From the NCBI RefSeq assembly GCF_006716425.1, contig NZ_VFOZ01000002.1:682001-746000 (forward strand): a stretch of DNA of 64,000 nucleotides, read 5' to 3'. The notes under the pieces were generated by a model. It made no database searches. It worked only from the letters and a program-made list of their open reading frames with translations, and was not told the DNA's origin. Made by a program: the position numbers and the translations under genes. Positions 6,484-16,511 of the stretch are shown here, piece by piece; position 1 is the stretch's first letter, and each line of letters begins with the position of its first letter. This DNA comes from Actinoallomurus bryophytorum (lineage in GTDB: Bacteria > Actinomycetota > Actinomycetes > Streptosporangiales > Streptosporangiaceae).

Positions 6484-9400
6484 TCAGCCGGCCGCGATGG
6501 CGAAGACGCCGATCGCGCCCGTGCTCAGTGAGGGCGGCAGGGTCACCGAGGCGACCGTCTTACCAGCGGTGATGGGGATGGTCTGGGAGAAGACGTACGT
6601 CTTCACCCCGTCCTTTCCGGTCGTGTAGTTGCGGTACGGAGTGGTACCCGTGATCACGTTCCCGAACAGAGGGCTGCCGCTGCCCGCCGACAGGGTCCAG
6701 TCGCTGAACCCTAGCGTCGCCGTCGACGAAGACCCGTCCGTGTAGGTGATCGTGGCCGTGCCGGACGAGCCGTCCGTTCCGGCGTTGTGCGCGCTGCCGA
6801 GGAAACCCAGCTTGGTCGCACCGGCGGGCGAGTCGACGGGGATGTTCTGGCCGCCGACCGAGATGTTGTCCGGTTGACCCGCCGGTACGTCCGGCCAGGT
6901 GTACGCGATCCCGCCCGACGTGACGGACGCTCCCGGAGCCAGACCGGCAGCCGTTAGGGCCTGTTCGGAATAGCTCCAGCCGCCGCCGTCGTAGTTGGCA
7001 CCAGAAGGTGCACTGTCATCGCTGATGCCGGCGTTGTCATAGAACGGGGTCAGGTCGCCCGGCTTGGCGACGATAACGCCCAGCGACACCGGGAGGATCT
7101 TCCCCGACGGGCTGGTGAGGGTGAAGTTGATCGGATAGTTCCCGTCCGTGTCGCCCGCGGTCACCGTGAGGTCAACGGAGGCGCTGCCGCCCGACGGTAC
7201 GTTCAGGGTGCCGCTCGACGGGCTGACGGTGACACCGGAAGGCGCCGAGGCCGTCCACTGCACCGCCTGGTCGCCCGAGGAGACCGACTTCACCGTCAGC
7301 GTCGTCTTCGCCGAACCGCCGGGCCGCAGGTTCACCGACGACGGGCTCAGCGCTCCGGTGGCGGCGAAGGTCGGGCCGTACGACGGAGGCGCGTCCGACG
7401 CGCCCGTGCCCCACGACGTCTCCGCCGTGCTCATCTTCCAGTCGATCGTGGCGCCCTTGGCCAGCGTCGAGAACGGAACGTACAGCTTGCTGTTGGCCTT
7501 TCCGTTGATCTTCTGGGACTTCACGTAGTACTCAGACGGCGACGCGTCCGGAGCGGTGATCTTGATGGTCTTCCCGCTCGGCAGTGAAATCGTCGCGCGC
7601 GGGAAGCCCGGGCTGCCGAAGACCAGCGTGTCGCTGCCCGGGTTCTCCGGGTACATGCCGAGCATCGACCAGACGAACGCGGCGCTGTTCGCGCCGAGGT
7701 CGTCGTTGTCCTGCAGGCCGGACGGACCGGGCAGGTACAGCCCGTACCGCAGGGTGTTGGCGGCCTGCTGAGCGCCGGCCGGGTCGCCGGCGTAGTCCGG
7801 GGCGTACTCCTCACCGTGGCCGAACTCGTTGGAGAGCAGGGCGTACTCCCCGTTCCCGTCCGGCCTGGACAGGAACTTGCGCAGCGCCGGCTTGACCTTG
7901 GCGTTGCCGCCGAGGAGCGAGAACAGGCCCGCGTAGTCGTTGGGCACGTCCCACAGGTACTGCTCCGCGGTGCCCTCGATGTAGTGGCTGCTCGTGGAGG
8001 GGGTGATACCGGGCAGGAACGCGCCGTTCTTCAGTCGTGGCGTGAGCAGGCCGGTCGAGGTGTTGAAGACGTTCGCCCAGTTGTTCGCGCGGTCCTGGAA
8101 CTTGGTCGCGTTCGCGGAGTCGCCGAGGGACGCGGCGAAGCGGGACAGGGCGAAGTCCGCGCTGTCGTACTCCAGCAACGAGGACACCTGGGCGTGCGGG
8201 TTGCAGCAGCCGTACGTCCCGTCCTCGGGCAGGTAACCGTACTGGTCCTCCAGCGCCGTCCCCGGCCGTACGTCGTTGACCGTGGTGGCCTGTTTCACCA
8301 TGTTCGCCAGCGCGGTCTTCGTGTCGAAGTCCTTGGCGCCGAAGGCGTAGTAGTCGGCGATCAGAGCGCTGCCCGGGTCTCCGGCCATCACCCAGTTGTC
8401 CAGGTGCAGGTAGCCCCACTGCTGGATGATGCCGTTCTCGGCGTAGTAGTTGACCTGCGACTGCGCCTGGTCGCTGGCCTCCTTCGGCGTCAGCATGGCC
8501 TGGAGCTGGGCGACCGAGTGGTAGGTGTCCCAGCCCGAGTACATGCCGTACTGCTGCTTCTGCTTCCCCGACACCGAGTGGACCTTGACGTCCGAGCCCA
8601 TGAACTGGCCGTTCACGTCGGAGGTGATGTTCGGCTGGATGAAGTTGTGGTAGAGCGCGCTGTAGAACAGCTGCGTCGTCGCCGCCGAGGAGCCGGACAC
8701 GTTCATCCGGCCGAGCAGGGTGTTCCACGACTTCTGCGCGGCCTTCTTGACCGAGTCGAAGTTCCAGCCGGGGTTCTCCGTACGCCAGTTCAGCGCGGCG
8801 TTGTCCGCGCTCACGTACGAGATGCCGACCTTCGCCTGGACCGTCGCACCCTTGGTCGTGTCGAAAGTGACCGAGGCCGCCTGGGGACTCGACCCCGAGC
8901 CGGTGATCACCTTGGACGCGGTGAAGGGACGATCGAAGGTGATGTCGTAGTAGACGGTGTACTTGGCGGAGTCGCCGCAGAAGCCGCCGCTGGTGTCCGA
9001 GCCCTTGATCTCGTTGTTGCCGACGATCTGGGCGCTGGAGGCCGAGTCGCCGTTCTGGCTGTCCATCAGCTTGATGAGGAAGCCCGCCTGAGTGGTCGAC
9101 GGGAAGGTGAACCGGCCCATCGCGCTGTGCGGAGTCTCGGTGAGCTGCGTGGTGATGGTGTCGGGCAGGTTGCTCTGCGCCGAGTAGTAGCCCGCCTGGG
9201 CGACCTCGCCGGCGTTGGTGAACGCGGTGGTGGCCTCGTTCGGGTCACCGCTCGGCAGGTCACCGGTGATCGGCAGGATCGGGATGTCCCCGGCCGCGCC
9301 GCAGCCGGGGCCGCTCACGTGCGTGAGGCTGTAGCCGGTGAGCTCTTCGTCACCGTAGTTGTAGCCGCCGCCCGCGTTCCGGTGCGGCATGGTGTCCGGG

Positions 9401-9750
9401 CTCCACTGCACCATGCCGTACGGCACGTCCGCGCCGGGGAAGGTGTTGCCACCGCCGGTCGTCCAGGTACGCGTGTCGACCAGCGAGGCCGGGTCGCTCA
9501 CGTTCGAGAGCGTCGCGGTCTCCTTGGCGGCCTTCGGCAGCGCCTTGGCCGCGAGGGGTTTCGGGCAGTCGGTCAGACGCCCGTCGGGTCCCTTGACGCA
9601 GGTGGCCGTGTTCGCGTGGGCGTTCTTGAGCTGGGTTCCGGGACTGGGCACGGGGCTCGGCCCCTGTGCCAAGGCGGGCAAGCCGCTGCCCAGGACCGTC
9701 GCCGTGGCCAGTGCCACGGCGGCGGCCAGGCGCGCCGCCGATCGTCTCAT
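6484..9750 (-). CDS. Secreted GH92 alpha-mannosidase
   Basis: A 1088-aa exported glycosidase. Residues 1-28 form a Sec-type signal (RRSAAR, then a hydrophobic core ending ALAQ). The GH92 body (about 80-780) has GGNTFPGADVPYGMVQWSP near its start, YIEGTAEQY at about 588-597 (the Glu aligns with the general acid) and DNDDLGANSAAF near 680 (aligning with the GNEDCGQ calcium/base motif). An NEW3-type beta domain follows (about 800-890). The last 170 residues form a domain also found at the end of the GH3 enzyme at 55638-59249. GH92 enzymes are Ca-dependent exo-alpha-mannosidases acting on fungal mannan and N-glycans. The ATG at 9750 has GGAGGGG upstream, and a LacI-type palindrome lies 29 nt before the start. 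Confidence 0.92.
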   Translation of the reverse strand: MRRSAARLAAAVALATATVLGSGLPALAQGPSPVPSPGTQLKNAHANTATCVKGPDGRLTDCPKPLAAKALPKAAKETATLSNVSDPASLVDTRTWTTGGGNTFPGADVPYGMVQWSPDTMPHRNAGGGYNYGDEELTGYSLTHVSGPGCGAAGDIPILPITGDLPSGDPNEATTAFTNAGEVAQAGYYSAQSNLPDTITTQLTETPHSAMGRFTFPSTTQAGFLIKLMDSQNGDSASSAQIVGNNEIKGSDTSGGFCGDSAKYTVYYDITFDRPFTASKVITGSGSSPQAASVTFDTTKGATVQAKVGISYVSADNAALNWRTENPGWNFDSVKKAAQKSWNTLLGRMNVSGSSAATTQLFYSALYHNFIQPNITSDVNGQFMGSDVKVHSVSGKQKQQYGMYSGWDTYHSVAQLQAMLTPKEASDQAQSQVNYYAENGIIQQWGYLHLDNWVMAGDPGSALIADYYAFGAKDFDTKTALANMVKQATTVNDVRPGTALEDQYGYLPEDGTYGCCNPHAQVSSLLEYDSADFALSRFAASLGDSANATKFQDRANNWANVFNTSTGLLTPRLKNGAFLPGITPSTSSHYIEGTAEQYLWDVPNDYAGLFSLLGGNAKVKPALRKFLSRPDGNGEYALLSNEFGHGEEYAPDYAGDPAGAQQAANTLRYGLYLPGPSGLQDNDDLGANSAAFVWSMLGMYPENPGSDTLVFGSPGFPRATISLPSGKTIKITAPDASPSEYYVKSQKINGKANSKLYVPFSTLAKGATIDWKMSTAETSWGTGASDAPPSYGPTFAATGALSPSSVNLRPGGSAKTTLTVKSVSSGDQAVQWTASAPSGVTVSPSSGTLNVPSGGSASVDLTVTAGDTDGNYPINFTLTSPSGKILPVSLGVIVAKPGDLTPFYDNAGISDDSAPSGANYDGGGWSYSEQALTAAGLAPGASVTSGGIAYTWPDVPAGQPDNISVGGQNIPVDSPAGATKLGFLGSAHNAGTDGSSGTATITYTDGSSSTATLGFSDWTLSAGSGSPLFGNVITGTTPYRNYTTGKDGVKTYVFSQTIPITAGKTVASVTLPPSLSTGAIGVFAIAAG

Positions 9751-9778
9751 TGGTCTTCCCCTCCGGGGTACGCGGAAA

Positions 9779-9792
9779 TGACAACGTTGTCA
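9779..9792 (-). promoter_or_regulatory. LacI-family operator upstream of GH92
   Basis: TGACAACGTTGTCA is a perfect 14-bp palindrome with the central CG typical of LacI-family operators controlling actinobacterial glycosidase genes. It lies 29 nt upstream of the GH92 start codon. No LacI-family regulator gene is in this window. Confidence 0.75.
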
Positions 9793-9899
9793 GCGCAGGC
9801 ATCGTGACCCTTGGTGCGGAAAACGGTCAATCCGAAATGGCTAAAGACTCGCAAGACGTCCTAAAGCGGACAAAGGGTGGACAGCGCGGCCGAAGAGCC

Positions 9900-10859
9900 C
9901 TAATGGGGGCTGCGGCCGAAGGTGATGCGGTAGTCGCAGAGCCCCGAACACGTGAACACGCTGGTGGCGTCGTCGTTGACGTAGGAGTAGGCGAACGGCT
10001 CGGCACGCTTGAACACGGCGGCCGAGTCGATCGGCCACTGCGCGGGCACGCACTTGGGCCGGGGCGCCCACTCCCCCCGGCAGCAGGTCTGGTCGGTGTT
10101 CAGGGCGACGCACGCGCTCCGGCAGGCGACCACGGCGCCCCCGTGGGTCACCCGCAACCTCGCCGGGCAGGTCGCGTTCGTATCCTGCGTGCATCCCGCC
10201 GCGACGCAGCCGGTCGAGCTGATCTTGTCTGGCGTACGGCCGCCCGTGTGGTTGATGTACATCGGCAGGTTCGAGCCGTCCACCAGGCTGACGTCGTAGA
10301 AGTCCATGCCGCGCCAGGCGTTCAGGTTGAACTCGGCCAGCGTGGCCGGCAGCGCGCCCCAGTGACTGCCGCACTGGAAGCGCCCGCCGCAGTCTCCGGT
10401 CACGCAGTGCGTATGACCCGAGCAGCCGGTACGCGCCCAGACCCGGGCGTCCCAGTGGTCCGGCAGGACGACGCTGACCTTGCCGCCCGGCGGCAGCCGC
10501 CAGCCGGTCGCCTTGATGGGATGCTTCGGGTCGGCCGCCACGGCGGGCCAGATGGTACGGGCCGTACGGTTGACCATCGTCAGCAGCCGCTGTCCCGCTC
10601 GGCGGTTCGGCTTCGGAGCCGTACGCGGCCGGGCCGACCGGAGCGACGGAGTCAGCGTCGGCGACGGACTCGGCGCCGAGGCCGAAGCCGAAGCCGAGGC
10701 CGAGGCCGAGGGGACGATCGGCGCGCCCGCCGCGGGTCTGGAGTTCGACGCGGCCCGCTCCCCTGTGAACGGCCCGGCCAGCAGCAGGGCGGCGACGAGA
10801 CCGAGCCCGCAGGCACAGGCGGCGAGAACGAGGGTACGTCGAGAGCTCTTGAGATGCAC
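9900..10859 (-). CDS. Membrane-anchored thaumatin-like protein
   Basis: A 319-aa protein with an N-terminal hydrophobic signal or anchor (about 8-30), a Ser/Ala/Pro linker that includes six SA repeats, and a thaumatin-like domain from about 95. The domain shows VNRTARTIWPAV, GWRLPPGGKVSVVLPDHWDAR-type sequence, GDCGGRFQCG and FYDVSLVDGSNLPM, with 14 cysteines in the mature part (seven possible disulfides). Thaumatin-like proteins are mostly plant or fungal antifungal proteins, some binding or cutting beta-1,3-glucan. Bacterial ones are uncommon. The GTG start has GGAGG upstream, inside the end of the sigma/GH128 gene. Only 12 nt separate the two genes, so they are almost surely cotranscribed. 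Confidence 0.88.
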   Translation of the reverse strand: MHLKSSRRTLVLAACACGLGLVAALLLAGPFTGERAASNSRPAAGAPIVPSASASASASASAPSPSPTLTPSLRSARPRTAPKPNRRAGQRLLTMVNRTARTIWPAVAADPKHPIKATGWRLPPGGKVSVVLPDHWDARVWARTGCSGHTHCVTGDCGGRFQCGSHWGALPATLAEFNLNAWRGMDFYDVSLVDGSNLPMYINHTGGRTPDKISSTGCVAAGCTQDTNATCPARLRVTHGGAVVACRSACVALNTDQTCCRGEWAPRPKCVPAQWPIDSAAVFKRAEPFAYSYVNDDATSVFTCSGLCDYRITFGRSPH

Positions 10860-10871
10860 GGAATCCTCCAG

Positions 10872-12665
10872 TCAGTGCGACCGCAGGCCCTGGAAGGCCC
10901 TGCCGACGGTGGTCGGGGTGCCCGACTCGGTGAACAGGCCGGTGCCACTGCCCTTCGTGGCCGGCAGGGCGAACCACGCATAGCGTTCGACGCCATGAAG
11001 GCCCGCGAGCATCGTCGTCGACGCCCTGAGGAAGGCGGCCTGCTGCGCCTGGGACGGATACACCGAGGTCGCCCCAAAGCGGATCAGCGCGTACTCGGTC
11101 AGCCAGATCGGCTTGTGGTAGCGCGCGTACACCGCCTGCACGTACTGCCGCAGCTGGCCGACCGCGCGCGAGGAGTCGAAGTCCGACCCGTACCAGTGCA
11201 GCGTGATGAAGTCGACCCGGTAGTGGCGCGCGGCGGCGCCGCGCATGAACTTGTCGAGCCAGCCGCCGGCGGTGGCGCCGTTCGCCGCGACCGCCGGGCT
11301 GCCGAGCCGCATCCCGGTCGCCGTCAGCTTCGGCCAGAGCGCCAGCGCCTGAGACGGTGACATGTTCGACTGCGCGGTCATGTCGGGCTCGTTGAAGCCC
11401 AGGAGCGTACGGCCCCGCGCCTTGGCCTGGGCGAGCGTCGCCGCGGTGACCGAGCGGGACCCCCAGATCATCGGCACGTACTCCACACCGCCCGGCTTGG
11501 TGATCCCCGAGCTGCCGGCCGCCCAGTCGTAGTACCAGCAGGCTCCCGACGCGCGCAGCGCCGGACCCGCCGCGCCGAACTTCCAGGTGGCGACACCCTT
11601 CATGCACGAACCGGCGGCGGCGCGTACGGCCGGCGGGTGGCCCTTGGGGATCAGTGCGGGCGCGGTCGGGGTGGGGGTACGCGCCGGATCGGGAGCGGCG
11701 GCGGACGAGGACGCCGCGGTGGGTCCCGTCGCGGCGGCGGGCCGTTCACCACCGCCCCGGCCGAGCGTGGCGAGGCCCACCAGGCCCGCGACGGCGCCGG
11801 CGGCGAGAGGCACGGCGATCAGGGCCTTCGCGGAAAGATGCGGAGCGGCGTGCCGGGTACGGACGACGCCCGGCCCGAACGCGCCCGGCAGACTCGCGTG
11901 CGCGAAGGAGGTAGGCACCGGGACGAGCGGCAGCGAGGCCAGCAGCCGTTCGGCCGGGATCAGGTCCGACGAGCGGGCCGAACAGCCGGCGCAGTCGCGG
12001 ATGTGCCGGGCCAGGCGCTTGCGCCACAGTGGCGCCGGCCTGCCGTCCCAGTCCGTCAGGAGCGCCGTCAGCCCGGCGCACTCCCCCGGGTCGGCCAGGA
12101 CGCGCACCACGGCGCGCCCGGTGTCGAGCCGCTCCTTCATCCGCTGCACCCGCACCGCGACGTGCTGCCGCGGCAGTTCGAGCGCGGCTGCCAGGTCCGC
12201 ACGTTCGAGCCGGCCGCCCTCCTCCAGCCACCACAGCGCCAGCAGCTCCCGGTCGTCGTCGTCGAGCCACCGGGTCGCCTCGGCGATCTCCTTGCGCTGG
12301 CCGGACAGGCTGAGCCGCAGGATCGTCACCTCGGCGAAGTCGGCGTCCGGATCGGCGACGTCGGGAACGTCCTCGAGCGGCGTGAGACGCGCACGTGACC
12401 GGTGGTAGTCGCGGATCTGGTGGATCGCCACCGCGACCAGCCAGGACCGGAAGGCGGCCGGCTTCCGTAGCGCGGAGACGCCGCGCAGCGTCCGCAGGAC
12501 CGTCTCCTGCACGACGTCGTCCACGTCCGGGTGGCCGTTCAGCGCCCGGCCGACGATGTTGTAGAGCAACGGGAGGCAACCCGACGCGAGGTCCGCGAGC
12601 GCTCGCTGATCACCACGCTGCGCCGCGCGTACCGTTCTGACACTGGGCAGGGGGTTTGCCACCAC
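10872..12665 (-). CDS. ECF sigma factor fused to zinc-finger, TM and GH128 domain
   Basis: About 597 aa. Sigma-2 (about 10-85, with DVDDVVQETVLRTLRG) and sigma-4 (about 120-180) form an ECF sigma factor. HIRDCAGC (about 220) matches the HxxxCxxC zinc motif of anti-sigma factors. One membrane helix (about 280-303) and an Ala/Pro/Thr linker lead to a GH128 beta-1,3-glucanase domain (about 350-597). That domain has LLGFNEPDM (acid/base Glu near 425) and WLTEYAL (nucleophile Glu near 522), so it looks catalytically intact. Topology would put sigma inside and GH128 outside. The GTG at 12665 follows GAGAGAG by 9 nt. A GTG at 12719 is an alternative start. Inferred role: sensing extracellular beta-glucan and releasing or activating the sigma part. 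The thaumatin-like gene follows 12 nt later. Confidence 0.88.
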   Translation of the reverse strand: MVANPLPSVRTVRAAQRGDQRALADLASGCLPLLYNIVGRALNGHPDVDDVVQETVLRTLRGVSALRKPAAFRSWLVAVAIHQIRDYHRSRARLTPLEDVPDVADPDADFAEVTILRLSLSGQRKEIAEATRWLDDDDRELLALWWLEEGGRLERADLAAALELPRQHVAVRVQRMKERLDTGRAVVRVLADPGECAGLTALLTDWDGRPAPLWRKRLARHIRDCAGCSARSSDLIPAERLLASLPLVPVPTSFAHASLPGAFGPGVVRTRHAAPHLSAKALIAVPLAAGAVAGLVGLATLGRGGGERPAAATGPTAASSSAAAPDPARTPTPTAPALIPKGHPPAVRAAAGSCMKGVATWKFGAAGPALRASGACWYYDWAAGSSGITKPGGVEYVPMIWGSRSVTAATLAQAKARGRTLLGFNEPDMTAQSNMSPSQALALWPKLTATGMRLGSPAVAANGATAGGWLDKFMRGAAARHYRVDFITLHWYGSDFDSSRAVGQLRQYVQAVYARYHKPIWLTEYALIRFGATSVYPSQAQQAAFLRASTTMLAGLHGVERYAWFALPATKGSGTGLFTESGTPTTVGRAFQGLRSH

Positions 12666-12892
12666 GGCACTGGACTCTCTCACAATCAGGAGACGCGGCC
12701 ACAGGTCACCCGATAACACTTTTCTCGCCCGAATATCGCCGGCACGCTCATGGCCGGTCGTTCCGTGACCGTCCGCCTACCTTGCGTTCCTCGACTCTCC
12801 GAGCCCGGACGCCCGCCGCATGCGCACGGCCGGAGTCGGCCGATCCGTTCGCGATAAATACGCTCGCGCGCCATTTCATCGCGATGGTCCCA

Positions 12893-12907
12893 CCACCATC
12901 ATGGTGG
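12893..12907. repeat. Short inverted repeat upstream of nuclease gene
   Basis: CCACCAT C ATGGTGG has 7-bp arms around one base. It lies 30 nt before the nuclease start and could be an operator half-pair or chance. There is no further support. Confidence 0.3.
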
Positions 12908-12936
12908 CCGACACAAAACGGTCATCGGAGGATCTC

Positions 12937-15369
12937 TTGCGCGTCCATGTCTTGTCCGGGCTGACGAGGGCGACCGCGGGTGTCGCCGTCTGCGGCCTCG
13001 CGCTCGCCACGCTGGTCGCCGGGGGCGACACGGCGGCGTCCGCCACACCGGCGACGTCCGTGGTGGTCAACGAGGTGTACGGCGGCGGCGGAAACTCCGG
13101 CGCGACCTACACCAATGACTTCGTCGAGCTCACCAACCGCGGCGACGCCGCCGTGAGTCTCGACGGCTGGTCGGTCCAGTACCACCCCGGCGGTGCGACC
13201 GGCACCTGGCAGGTCACCACGCTGAGCGGCTCGCTCGCGCCCGGCGGCTTCTACCTGGTCGGCGAGGCCAAGGGCACGGGCGGCACGCAGGCCCTGCCCA
13301 CGACGCAGGCCACCGGGAACATCGCCATGTCCGGCACCGCCGGCACGATCGCCCTGGTCCACGACACCGCGGCGCTGACCTGCGCGGACCCGGCGGCCTG
13401 CCAGAGTGCCTCCGTGGACCTCGTCGGCTACGGCACCGCCGCGCTCAGCGAGACCGCTCCGGCGGCGGGCGCGTCCAACACCGCGTCGGTGCAGCGGAGT
13501 GACAAGGCGGACAGCGACGACAACTCCGCCGACTTCAGCGCCGCGGACCCGACGCCCGGCGCCGCGAACGCCGGCGGCGACGGAGGAGGCGGCGGTGGCG
13601 GTGGCGGCGAGCCCGGTCCGCTGCGCATCCACGACATCCAGGGCACCAGCTGGATCTCGCCGCAGAACGGCCAGCACGTCACCAACGTGCCCGGGATCGT
13701 CACGGCCATCCGGCCTGCGGGCAGCAGCCGGGGGTACTGGATCCAGGACCCGGCCCCGGACACGAACCCGGCCACCAGCGAGGGCCTGTTCGTCTTCAGC
13801 TCCTCGCCGGGCGTGGCGGTGGGCGACTCCGTCCTGGTCTCGGGCACGGTCAAGGACTTCTATCCGCTGTCGAGCGGCGACACGGTGGAGAACACCTCCA
13901 ACCTGTCGGTGACCGAGCTGAACAGCCCGGTCGTCAGCGTGCTCTCCCACGGCAACGCACTGCCGGATGCCGAGGTCCTCACGCCGACCACGGTTCCCGG
14001 CAAGTACGCCCCGGACCTCGGGGGCACCGACATCGAGTCCACGCCGATCACCCCGGCACGCTCGGCCCTGGACTTCTGGGAGTCACGGGAGGGCATGCGG
14101 GTGCAGGTCGACGACGCCCGCGCGGTCGGCCCGTCCAACGACTTCGGTGAGCAGTACGTCACGACGAAGCCGGCGCAGAACCCCTCCTACCGCGGTGGCA
14201 CCGAGCTGCTCGCGGAGAACGCCGTACCCTCCGGCCGCATCGAGGTCACCACCGCGGACGGCAGCGACCCCGGCGTCTCGGTCGGCGACGTGTTCACCGG
14301 CGCGACGGCCGGCCCGGTCGACTACTCCCAGTTCGGCGGTTACACGATCGCCGCGACGCAGGTCGGCACCGTCAAGCACAGGAACCTGCCGCCCGTCGTC
14401 GCCACGCCGCAGGACCGCAAGCAGCTCGCGGTGGCGACGTACAACGTGGAGAACCTCGCGCCCGGCGACCCCGCCGACAAGTACACCAAGCTCGCGCAGG
14501 GCGTCGTCACCAACCTGGCCAAGCCCGACATCGTGGCGGTCGAGGAGGTGCAGGACAACACCGGCGCCACCGACGACGGCGTGGTCGCGGCCGACCAGAC
14601 GCTGACCAAGCTGACCGCGGCGATCGTCGCGGCGGGCGGCCCGAAGTACGACTGGCGTGAGATCGACCCGGTCAACGACCAGGACGGCGGACAGCCCGGC
14701 GGCAACATCCGGGTCGTCTACCTGTTCAACCCGGCACGGGTGTCGTTCGTGGACCGCGGGTCGTCGTCGGTCGACCGCTCCACCACCCCGACGTCGGTCG
14801 AGAAGCTCCACGGGAAGCCCGCTCTCACCCTGTCCCCGGGACGGATCGACCCGGCGAGCACGGTGTGGAACGCCAGCCGCAAGCCGCTCGCGGGCGAGTT
14901 CCGGTTCCGGAACAAGCCGGTGTTCGTCATCGCGAACCACTTCGACTCCAAGCTCGGTGACCAGAACGCGGACGGCCGCTTCCAGTACCCCGCCCAGTCG
15001 TCGGCGGTGCAGCGCGCGGGCCAGGCCAAGGAGGTCCACGACTTCGTCCAGCGGATCCAGAAGGTGGACAAGAAGGCCGATGTCGTCGTGCTCGGCGACC
15101 TGAACGACTACCAGTTCAGCCCGGCGCTCGCGACGCTGCGGACCGGGAACGCCGGCGGGCACGGCAGGCCGATCCTGACCGACCTGATCAGCACGCTCCC
15201 GCGCAACGAGCAGTACACCTACGTGTTCGACGGCCTCTCCGAGGTGCTCGACCACATCCTGGTGACCCCGGCCGTACGCGGCGTGCGGTACCAGGTGATC
15301 CACATCAACGCCGAGTACACCGACCAGACGAGCGACCACGACCCACAGGTGCTCCGGATGACCCCGTAA
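12937..15369 (+). CDS. Secreted ExeM/NucH-type endonuclease with lamin-tail domain
   Basis: 810 aa from a TTG start. The start is chosen because GGAGG lies 5 nt upstream and the product then begins with a clean signal peptide (VLSGLTRATAGVAVCGLALA, cleaved near ASA). A lamin-tail domain (about 35-150, VVNEVYGGGGNSGATYTNDF) is followed by a Gly-rich linker and an OB-like region. The C-terminal endonuclease/exonuclease/phosphatase domain (about 500-810) has VATYNVENL, IVAVEEVQDN, VVVLGDLNDY and SDHDPQV. These match catalytic positions of the DNase I-like fold in ExeM/NucH extracellular nucleases. The role is digestion of external DNA for nutrition or biofilm release. It is divergent from the sigma/GH128 gene. 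Confidence 0.9.
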   Translation: MRVHVLSGLTRATAGVAVCGLALATLVAGGDTAASATPATSVVVNEVYGGGGNSGATYTNDFVELTNRGDAAVSLDGWSVQYHPGGATGTWQVTTLSGSLAPGGFYLVGEAKGTGGTQALPTTQATGNIAMSGTAGTIALVHDTAALTCADPAACQSASVDLVGYGTAALSETAPAAGASNTASVQRSDKADSDDNSADFSAADPTPGAANAGGDGGGGGGGGGEPGPLRIHDIQGTSWISPQNGQHVTNVPGIVTAIRPAGSSRGYWIQDPAPDTNPATSEGLFVFSSSPGVAVGDSVLVSGTVKDFYPLSSGDTVENTSNLSVTELNSPVVSVLSHGNALPDAEVLTPTTVPGKYAPDLGGTDIESTPITPARSALDFWESREGMRVQVDDARAVGPSNDFGEQYVTTKPAQNPSYRGGTELLAENAVPSGRIEVTTADGSDPGVSVGDVFTGATAGPVDYSQFGGYTIAATQVGTVKHRNLPPVVATPQDRKQLAVATYNVENLAPGDPADKYTKLAQGVVTNLAKPDIVAVEEVQDNTGATDDGVVAADQTLTKLTAAIVAAGGPKYDWREIDPVNDQDGGQPGGNIRVVYLFNPARVSFVDRGSSSVDRSTTPTSVEKLHGKPALTLSPGRIDPASTVWNASRKPLAGEFRFRNKPVFVIANHFDSKLGDQNADGRFQYPAQSSAVQRAGQAKEVHDFVQRIQKVDKKADVVVLGDLNDYQFSPALATLRTGNAGGHGRPILTDLISTLPRNEQYTYVFDGLSEVLDHILVTPAVRGVRYQVIHINAEYTDQTSDHDPQVLRMTP

Positions 15370-15431: not shown

Positions 15432-16469
15432 TCAGCCTCGGGGCAGCACCTGCGACATCACGGACGGCAGGGCGAACCAGTCGCACGACACGATGCTCGC
15501 GTGGGCCTTGGCAAGCTGGGCCACCCGGTCCTTGGCGTCCGCCACCGACGGGTTCGTGTCGCTGAGAGCCGGTGGCACGTTGTGCGCGTCGGTCATGGTG
15601 AGCAGGTAGTGGTTGGTGTCGTAGAAGGAGGTGTCGACGCCGCTCACATAAGAGGCGGCGTCGCCGTCGAAGAGAACGAACCACGGCCGGATGCTCGTGT
15701 CGGCGTACTGCGTGCGCGGGTCGCCGCCGGTCGCGCCGAGTACGGCCGGGAACGTCGTGGCGGTGGCGATGTTGCCGGCGGCCTTGAGGTTCTTCAGGTA
15801 GGTCGCGTACTCCACGTCGGTGTGCAGCCTGTCGGTCGGGTTGCCCAGCTCGACCGTGCCGGGGATGACGTACAGGATGACCTTGCCGGCCAGCGCCGAA
15901 CGGCTCGGCCAGGCGTTCGCCTTGGCGGCCTCGTCGAGGGTCGCGTGGCCGCCGAGCAGGTCGGCGGGCCTGTACAGGGTGTTCCCGAGGTGGGCGTTCA
16001 CCTCCGCGTCGAACCCGGCGGGGCCCATCCCGTAATTGTTCTGGAAGCCGGCCTTCAGCTCCACCTTGACAAAGATCGGGCCCTGCGTGGGGTGCGCGGT
16101 GAGCCAGTACTTGATGTCGTCGAGACAGGACCCGAGGTCCTTGTTGGCGCTGCCCGTGTAGATGTCGGAAGGGCTGGACGCGTTGACGCAGTTGTTGTCA
16201 TTGCTGGTCGGCTTGTCGTGGCTGACCTTCCATTCGCGGGTGAAGATGTCGTCCCAGGCGTCCAGCTCGATCATGGACGCGCCGGTGTCGAGGCCCTGGG
16301 CCAGGTACGGGAAGTCGGCCTTGACGTAGGCGTTGTGGAGGCCCACGACGCTGGACTGGGCCACGGATGTGGCGTCCGCGGCGGCCGGCCGCGTCTGGGT
16401 GACGGACAGCGCGGGTACCGCCAGCGCGGCGGCGGTCACCGCGCACAGGCGAACACGGTTGGACAGCAT
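15432..16469 (-). CDS. Secreted PI-specific phospholipase C (Ca-dependent type)
   Basis: 345 aa. The signal peptide spans about 1-31 (cleavage near AAA-DA). The PI-PLC X-like domain has the two expected histidines, H45 in VGLHNAY and H84 in KVSHDKP, with acidic ELDAWDD (68-74) between them and FVKVELKAG further on. This fits the PF16670 calcium-dependent PI-PLC group known from Streptomyces, which cleaves phosphatidylinositol to inositol phosphate and diacylglycerol outside the cell. The start is the ATG at 16467-16469, preceded by GGAGGCTCC. A 22-bp inverted repeat lies 20 nt upstream. Confidence 0.88.
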   Translation of the reverse strand: MLSNRVRLCAVTAAALAVPALSVTQTRPAAADATSVAQSSVVGLHNAYVKADFPYLAQGLDTGASMIELDAWDDIFTREWKVSHDKPTSNDNNCVNASSPSDIYTGSANKDLGSCLDDIKYWLTAHPTQGPIFVKVELKAGFQNNYGMGPAGFDAEVNAHLGNTLYRPADLLGGHATLDEAAKANAWPSRSALAGKVILYVIPGTVELGNPTDRLHTDVEYATYLKNLKAAGNIATATTFPAVLGATGGDPRTQYADTSIRPWFVLFDGDAASYVSGVDTSFYDTNHYLLTMTDAHNVPPALSDTNPSVADAKDRVAQLAKAHASIVSCDWFALPSVMSQVLPRG

Positions 16470-16489
16470 GGAGCCTCCAGAAGCCAGTG

Positions 16490-16511
16490 GTGAATCGCGG
16501 GGTTGATTCAC
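16490..16511 (-). promoter_or_regulatory. Inverted repeat upstream of PI-PLC
   Basis: GTGAATC-N8-GATTCAC (arms 16490-16496 and 16505-16511) lies 20 nt upstream of the PI-PLC start. The arms are perfect and the spacing is operator-like. The cognate regulator is unknown. Confidence 0.5.

Follow-up and report, generated by a model that had tools for sequence, protein, structure and literature searches.

A predicted self-activating ECF sigma factor with an external GH128 beta-1,3-glucanase domain, and its thaumatin-like neighbour, in Actinoallomurus bryophytorum

Why should a sigma factor carry a glucanase on the far side of the membrane, and which genes would it serve? The question is raised by two adjacent genes in a 64,000-nucleotide stretch of Actinoallomurus bryophytorum DNA (contig NZ_VFOZ01000002.1, positions 682,001 to 746,000; hereafter the window), one encoding an extracytoplasmic function (ECF) sigma factor fused to a GH128 domain, the other a thaumatin-like protein. 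We propose that the fusion protein is probably a self-activating, membrane-tethered ECF sigma factor with a beta-1,3-glucanase outside the cell, and that its target would be its own operon including the thaumatin gene. Thaumatin would be an output only where it is present.

Architecture of the two genes

The sigma part of the fusion is recognized by Pfam as Sigma70_r2 (7.3e-13) and belongs to the ECF sigma factors, as TIGR02937 (sigma70-ECF) matches it at 6.3e-18 over profile positions 2-161 of 165 and regions 2 and 4 are the only sigma regions present. The sigma-E structure 1or7 matches residues 17-188 (1.4e-9), and in Pfam region 4 appears as an AsnC-type helix-turn-helix alone, under the cut-off. 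Next comes a zinc motif of the anti-sigma type, H-x3-C-x2-C with an additional upstream Cys, whose four columns are invariant across the 29 sequences of alignment A1 and which is carried by 78 of 79 aligned sigma rows. Mean hydropathy exceeds 1.6 in one segment only, within residues 283-308, and a Pro/Ala linker joins this transmembrane (TM) helix to the GH128 domain (Glyco_hydro_cc, PF11790, 3.5e-50).

The GH128 domain has the predicted fold of an endo-beta-1,3-glucanase of subgroup I. Its catalytic residues, Glu432 in GFNEP and Glu530 in WLTEY, match E102/E199 of AmGH128_I (6uaq), the subgroup I endo-beta-1,3-glucanase of Amycolatopsis mediterranei, which was solved as a stand-alone enzyme with no sigma factor attached; E199 was located via an aligned E199Q chain and E102 via the spacing of 97, and the VIA-align structure rows spanned the GH128 part only. 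This pair of Glu residues is kept in 45/45 aligned GH128 domains, 32 of which are sigma-linked, and the domain folded alone reaches a predicted local distance difference test score (pLDDT) of 93.2. An earlier note on this DNA, made from the letters and a list of open reading frames, had described one frame with sigma regions 2 and 4, an HxxxCxxC motif, a single TM helix, a Pro/Ala linker and a GH128 domain with both catalytic Glu, and all of these parts are borne out. The frame is intact, and an assembly join between the sigma and GH128 parts is unlikely because the fusion recurs in two congeners (85 and 78 % identity) and in other genera. The full fusion is found in three of eight genomes of a genus sample, the window's included; four others have weak sigma matches only and one has none.

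The gene behind the fusion follows after a gap of 12 nucleotides (10860-10871) with GGAGG inside. Its product is a member of the thaumatin family by PF00314 (3.2e-64, profile 1-208 of 209), a family found once in the window's genome, and it matches the plant thaumatin-like protein 2ahn with an E value of 2.5e-40. The domain contains 14 Cys, which agrees, as does the spacing, with the earlier note; eight of them are present in 37/37 aligned domains and the other six in 25/37. Plant members of the family have 16 Cys. The likeness to plant thaumatin-like or PR-5 proteins (2ahn, 3zs3) extends across the whole domain, whereas the window's gene differs in being bacterial, in having a hydrophobic N-terminus, which may serve either as a membrane anchor or as a signal peptide, and a low-complexity linker, and in standing behind an ECF-type promoter. 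Scans of 9500-13000 for sigma-70 promoters and for terminators gave no matches.

Table 1. Positions of the two genes, their parts and their neighbours in the window
Feature	Position	Strand	Remarks
ECF-type promoter TGTTATC-N17-GTCTCC	12689..12718	minus	upstream of sigma-GH128 gene
Sigma-zinc anti-sigma-TM-GH128 fusion gene	10872..12683	minus	603 aa, single intact frame
Sigma-70 region 2	12387..12578	minus	Pfam PF04542
Sigma region 4-like helix-turn-helix	12135..12266	minus	within TIGR02937 coverage; helices in structure model
Anti-sigma-type zinc motif C-x24-H-x3-C-x2-C	11982..12080	minus	Cys202, His227, Cys231, Cys234
Single TM helix, residues about 287-307	11763..11825	minus	hydropathy
GH128 subgroup I domain	10893..11549	minus	Glu432 at 11388-11390, Glu530 at 11094-11096
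Thaumatin-like secreted or membrane-anchored protein, 319 aa	9900..10859	minus	PF00314
GH92 mannosidase	6484-9750		flanking gene
LTD endonuclease/exonuclease-phosphatase	12820-15369		flanking gene
PI-PLC-like	15432-16511		flanking gene

In the portions of the literature drawn on here, the ECF52 and ECF53 groups of Actinobacteria combine a sigma factor, a zinc anti-sigma-like domain, a TM helix, a proline-rich linker and a carbohydrate-active ectodomain in one chain (PMC10766802, PMC8999054, PMC5826349), glycosyl hydrolase catalytic domains are predicted in some of them (PMC10766802), and release by proteolysis has been proposed (PMC8999054, PMC5826349). The window's fusion has the same one-chain domain order and is of the ECF52/ECF53 type by architecture, a placing with ECF53 being based on the descriptions in those parts of the reviews. 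Fusions of a sigma factor to a glycosyl hydrolase are therefore an already known kind, predicted in print (PMC10766802), and the earlier note, too, was aware of ECF factors with C-terminal extensions in actinobacteria. According to a 2024 review, experimental validation is still missing for those members in which a glycosyl hydrolase domain is predicted (PMC10766802). The studied ECF52 protein SCO4117 has a carbohydrate-binding module in place of GH128, and the putative promoter motif proposed for it, CSGYN-17-SRHA, differs from the one described below. The same partial descriptions of ECF52/53 contain no thaumatin partner. What is new here is the ECF-type promoter before the sigma gene, the motif copies before thaumatin genes and the tie between thaumatin and GH128; among the open-licence papers searched, none brings an ECF sigma factor together with thaumatin or GH128, we found nothing on a thaumatin partner, a shared promoter or a GH128-thaumatin tie, and the papers that pair thaumatin with GH128, or with sigma factor and Streptomyces, look unrelated judging by their titles and the starts of their abstracts.

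A glycoside hydrolase outside a membrane anti-sigma factor is also reminiscent of the RsgI-type anti-sigma factors of Clostridium thermocellum, in which such an ectodomain is reportedly a putative carbohydrate sensor (Bahari and colleagues, 2011). In RsgI-type systems sigma and anti-sigma factor are two proteins and the sigma factor is of the sigma-I type, whereas the window's fusion is one chain with an ECF sigma factor and does not belong among them.

A promoter motif shared with thaumatin genes

When the upstream regions of the sigma genes are placed side by side, a bipartite consensus is seen, [CT]GTTRTC-N16/17-GTCTCC. The form TGTTRTC-N15-17-GTCTCC has one match in the window, at 12689-12718, where 0.02 are expected. 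With up to three mismatches allowed (the strict motif), there is a single site in the window's 9.47 Mb genome (G000), at this operon; a single site in genome G001, upstream of the orthologue; and two in genome G006, an exact one at sigma-GH128 and one with two mismatches elsewhere. A reversed-pattern control gave 0 matches in these three genomes. At this stringency the operon would be the sole target in the window's genome, with weaker targets possible. Two looser matches were set aside by eye, one (C1:492194) lying inside an apparent alpha/beta hydrolase gene on the opposite strand and the other (C1:4502410) overlapping the first codons of an apparent kinase gene.

The motif also bears on where translation begins. 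The longest open reading frame starts at 12719, which is not the true start since it is upstream of the promoter. A GTG at 12683 is situated 5 nucleotides past the -10 element in the context GTCTCC-N5-RTGAGAGAGT, which is common to the window (L109), L015, L016 and L017. As a GTG or ATG codon stands exactly this far from the -10 element in all four, which belong to the window's clade, translation of the fusion gene probably begins leaderless at 12683; the start at 12665 given in the earlier note is possible, yet less likely.

For a wider comparison we used the best 80 of 130 relatives from a scan of GTDB genomes, which correspond to 79 loci, with contents called by small profiles in a fetched stretch of up to 6 kb flank. 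These comprise 30 sigma-GH128 loci, 47 other sigma relatives and 2 thaumatin-GH128 fusions. By regular expression the motif precedes 25/32 sigma-GH128 genes, 13/47 other sigma genes, 19/22 thaumatin genes and 0/2 thaumatin-GH128 fusion genes, with 40 additional matches elsewhere in 971 kb on both strands. The first regular expression demanded T at position 1 and missed convergent thaumatins; the pattern was widened to C/T after the thaumatin upstreams had been inspected, the C form being already visible in the sigma upstreams of L022 and L024.

A matrix was also trained on 24 sigma promoters, picked with the widened pattern at loci whose fetched stretch has no thaumatin. It was run over thaumatin upstreams of 650 nucleotides, with 1500 control windows from the same loci supplying the threshold, their 99th percentile. 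Seventeen of the 22 thaumatin upstreams score above it. The five that do not are those of the window and L015, both of which follow sigma on the same strand, of L086, of the divergent gene in L078 and of the convergent gene in L020, the last being barely below the threshold. None of nine thaumatin-GH128 fusion genes and neither of two thaumatins beside GH128 without sigma exceeds it. Divergent or convergent thaumatin genes usually have their own copy of the motif, and these copies come from Streptomyces, from the metagenome-assembled genome (MAG) locus L017 and from genome G338. The conserved promoter copies go beyond the evidence of the earlier note, and they support the prediction that the sigma factor acts on its own promoter and has thaumatin as a target.

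Thaumatin and GH128 across genomes

Thaumatin is found in the fetched stretch of 14/30 sigma-GH128 loci versus 0/47 other sigma loci (Fisher, 1.7e-7, a value that overstates independence as the rows are related). The unit of sigma factor, glucanase and thaumatin that the earlier note had perceived is real, although among the loci compared only the window and Actinomadura sp. DC4 show the same-strand order behind sigma. In L017 the two genes converge; in Streptomyces there is a divergent thaumatin gene, in some cases with a convergent one as well; and in G338 the order is divergent. The thaumatin-bearing loci fall in two clades of the sigma tree, one being the window's clade of four rows and the other, of 16 rows, containing Streptomyces and G338. 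In A. iriomotensis and Actinomadura sp. DC4, too, the locus is flanked by the three neighbouring genes of Table 1, which makes thaumatin the variable piece between sigma-GH128 and GH92.

The same association is seen from the side of thaumatin. In a class sample, of which the window's genome is part, thaumatin is found in only 8/394 genomes, and 7 of these 8 thaumatins are fused or adjacent to GH128: four are fused, one slightly overlaps a GH128 frame and two, one of them the window's, lie beside sigma-GH128. The remaining one is at a contig end, with GH128 at the end of another contig in that genome. Among 47 genomes chosen by their sigma relatives (from 50 of the 79 loci, three of which dropped out) there are 29 thaumatins in 19 genomes, distributed over 17/28 genomes with sigma-GH128, 2/2 with thaumatin-GH128 and 0/17 others. 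Twenty-seven of the 29 are either joined to GH128 in one chain or have GH128 or a member of this sigma family as a neighbour, L138 being counted here with its GH128 end on a different contig. The exceptions, L121 and L129, are at contig starts. These two are the only thaumatins in the genomes of L026 and L027, loci with outward-facing motif copies near contig ends (L026:147-175; L027:139-168, minus strand), consistent with a divergent thaumatin gene cut by a contig break.

In a class sample of 148 genomes PF11790 is present in 8 and shares a frame with a sigma factor in two, including the window's. On the sigma tree the GH128 label requires two changes. A CAP domain is carried by 33/47 other sigma relatives, and Pfam applied to nine of these other relatives gave CAP in seven and no named ectodomain in two. 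Other loci differ in detail: L025 and L037, both among the 30, have the sigma and GH128 parts in different frames, a frameshift that may be real or due to sequencing; L055 has the GH128 end only, at a contig start; and L102:2588-7136 (G338) has a tandem pair of sigma-GH128 genes, one with a long-branched sigma in the tree, together with a divergent thaumatin.

Proposed mechanism, alternatives and a wider family

Since the fusion has a zinc anti-sigma domain and a TM helix, we suggest, as has been proposed for ECF52/53, that the sigma factor is held at the membrane until it is processed. At rest the fused zinc domain would keep it there. On meeting beta-1,3-glucan, most likely that of a fungal wall, the GH128 domain would cause the sigma factor to be freed inside, probably by stepwise proteolysis of the kind put forward for ECF52/53, and the freed sigma factor would transcribe its own gene and the thaumatin gene. 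The surface would thereby gain more of the glucanase-sensor and a glucan-binding or antifungal thaumatin, and the signal could also be switched off as the bound glucan is cleaved. The locus has the look of a small circuit that senses and answers fungal cell walls. It offers beta-1,3-glucan as a candidate ligand, together with a promoter and an output of two genes, small enough for one plasmid, and is directly testable; actinobacterial thaumatins for their part now have GH128 as a consistent partner and, to some extent, a regulator as well.

Several observations weigh against this proposal. Thaumatin is missing from the fetched stretch of 16/30 sigma-GH128 loci and from 11/28 searched sigma-GH128 genomes altogether, and is therefore optional; the congener A. 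iriomotensis, too, has the sigma-GH128 gene without thaumatin. By regular expression 7/32 sigma-GH128 genes lack the motif, and many of the Streptomyces rows, including many thaumatin-bearing loci, are closely related. The AlphaFold model has a predicted TM score (pTM) of 0.47 and does not settle the seat of the zinc domain on the sigma factor.

The alternative that survives best departs from our proposal in purpose only: the circuit may serve to feed on beta-1,3-glucan of any source (fungal, algal or callose), with thaumatin a carbohydrate-binding helper of GH128 and not an antifungal weapon. Nine sigma-less and motif-less loci in which thaumatin and then GH128 form one chain (L082, L093, L097, L099, L100, L101, L145, L146 and L147) resemble a binding module joined to an enzyme, as this alternative would have it; however, the two-gene operon includes neither a transporter nor a beta-glucosidase, and the neighbouring GH92 gene is in the same place in A. 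iriomotensis, where there is no thaumatin. On balance we regard a nutritional role as possible but doubtful.

It is unlikely, in our judgement, that GH128 is mainly a glucanase displayed on the membrane, with glucan a substrate and not a signal, and that the sigma factor maintains its expression or answers membrane or wall stress. The active site is conserved in all 32 aligned sigma-linked GH128 domains, although a sensor that only bound its ligand could do without one, and related sigma factors bear CAP, which is no hydrolase, on the same scaffold, which is thus not specific to glucan. Against display, the ectodomain and the secreted protein encoded next door behind the same motif tend to correspond (GH128 and thaumatin; GH128 and CBM32-DUF1996 in two Planomonospora loci; CAP and CAP in L040 and L083), a match that is suggestive only as the motif is at 3/7 stand-alone CAP frames; and other sigma-glycosyl hydrolase fusions are discussed, in the part of the review used here, as carbohydrate-linked regulators (PMC10766802). 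That thaumatin and sigma-GH128 became neighbours by accident in the window's genome, as the restriction of the same-strand 12-nucleotide arrangement to that genome (the same-strand order alone being shared with Actinomadura sp. DC4) and the thaumatin-less A. iriomotensis locus might suggest, is very improbable and largely refuted by the linkage in differing gene orders and two sigma-tree clades, the promoter copies before thaumatins and the rarity of thaumatins elsewhere.

Beyond the self-activating sigma factor proposed above lies a broader reading, which we put forward tentatively and think rather less than even in its chances. The protein may be a bacterial counterpart of a fungal pattern-recognition receptor, a single molecule that touches beta-1,3-glucan, turns into a transcription factor and mounts a defence with a PR-5-like thaumatin, and may be one plug-in of a wider sigma family in which the ectodomain foretells the secreted partner under the same promoter. 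The pairs in this joint reading would be GH128 with thaumatin, CAP with CAP, GH128 with CBM32-DUF1996, and an unnamed domain with a lyase-AbfB protein. In tentative terms, each would be a local circuit, a sigma factor with an external domain switching on its own gene and that of a single secreted neighbour. The stand-alone CAP frames count against a strict rule, as 3/7 have the motif and 4/7 do not; one of these four, in L060, overlaps the sigma frame.

Other motif-bearing neighbours are as follows. In Planomonospora (L070:5568-5596; L081:4772-4800, minus strand) the motif faces a gene for an F5/8 type C (CBM32-like)-DUF1996 protein, divergent from sigma-GH128, in place of a thaumatin gene. 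CAP-domain genes divergent from sigma relatives, with the motif, are found in L040, L060 and L083; in L040 and L083 the sigma factor's own ectodomain is also CAP. In L034, the one Nonomuraea-type sigma relative given to Pfam, no ectodomain is recognized. A second copy of the motif is situated behind the sigma relative in Nonomuraea L052 (7717-7745) and L085 (7804-7832) and also in L068, L069 and L074, and in L052 and L085 it precedes the gene for an alginate-lyase-like and AbfB protein with a weak match to a twin-arginine translocation (TAT) signal.

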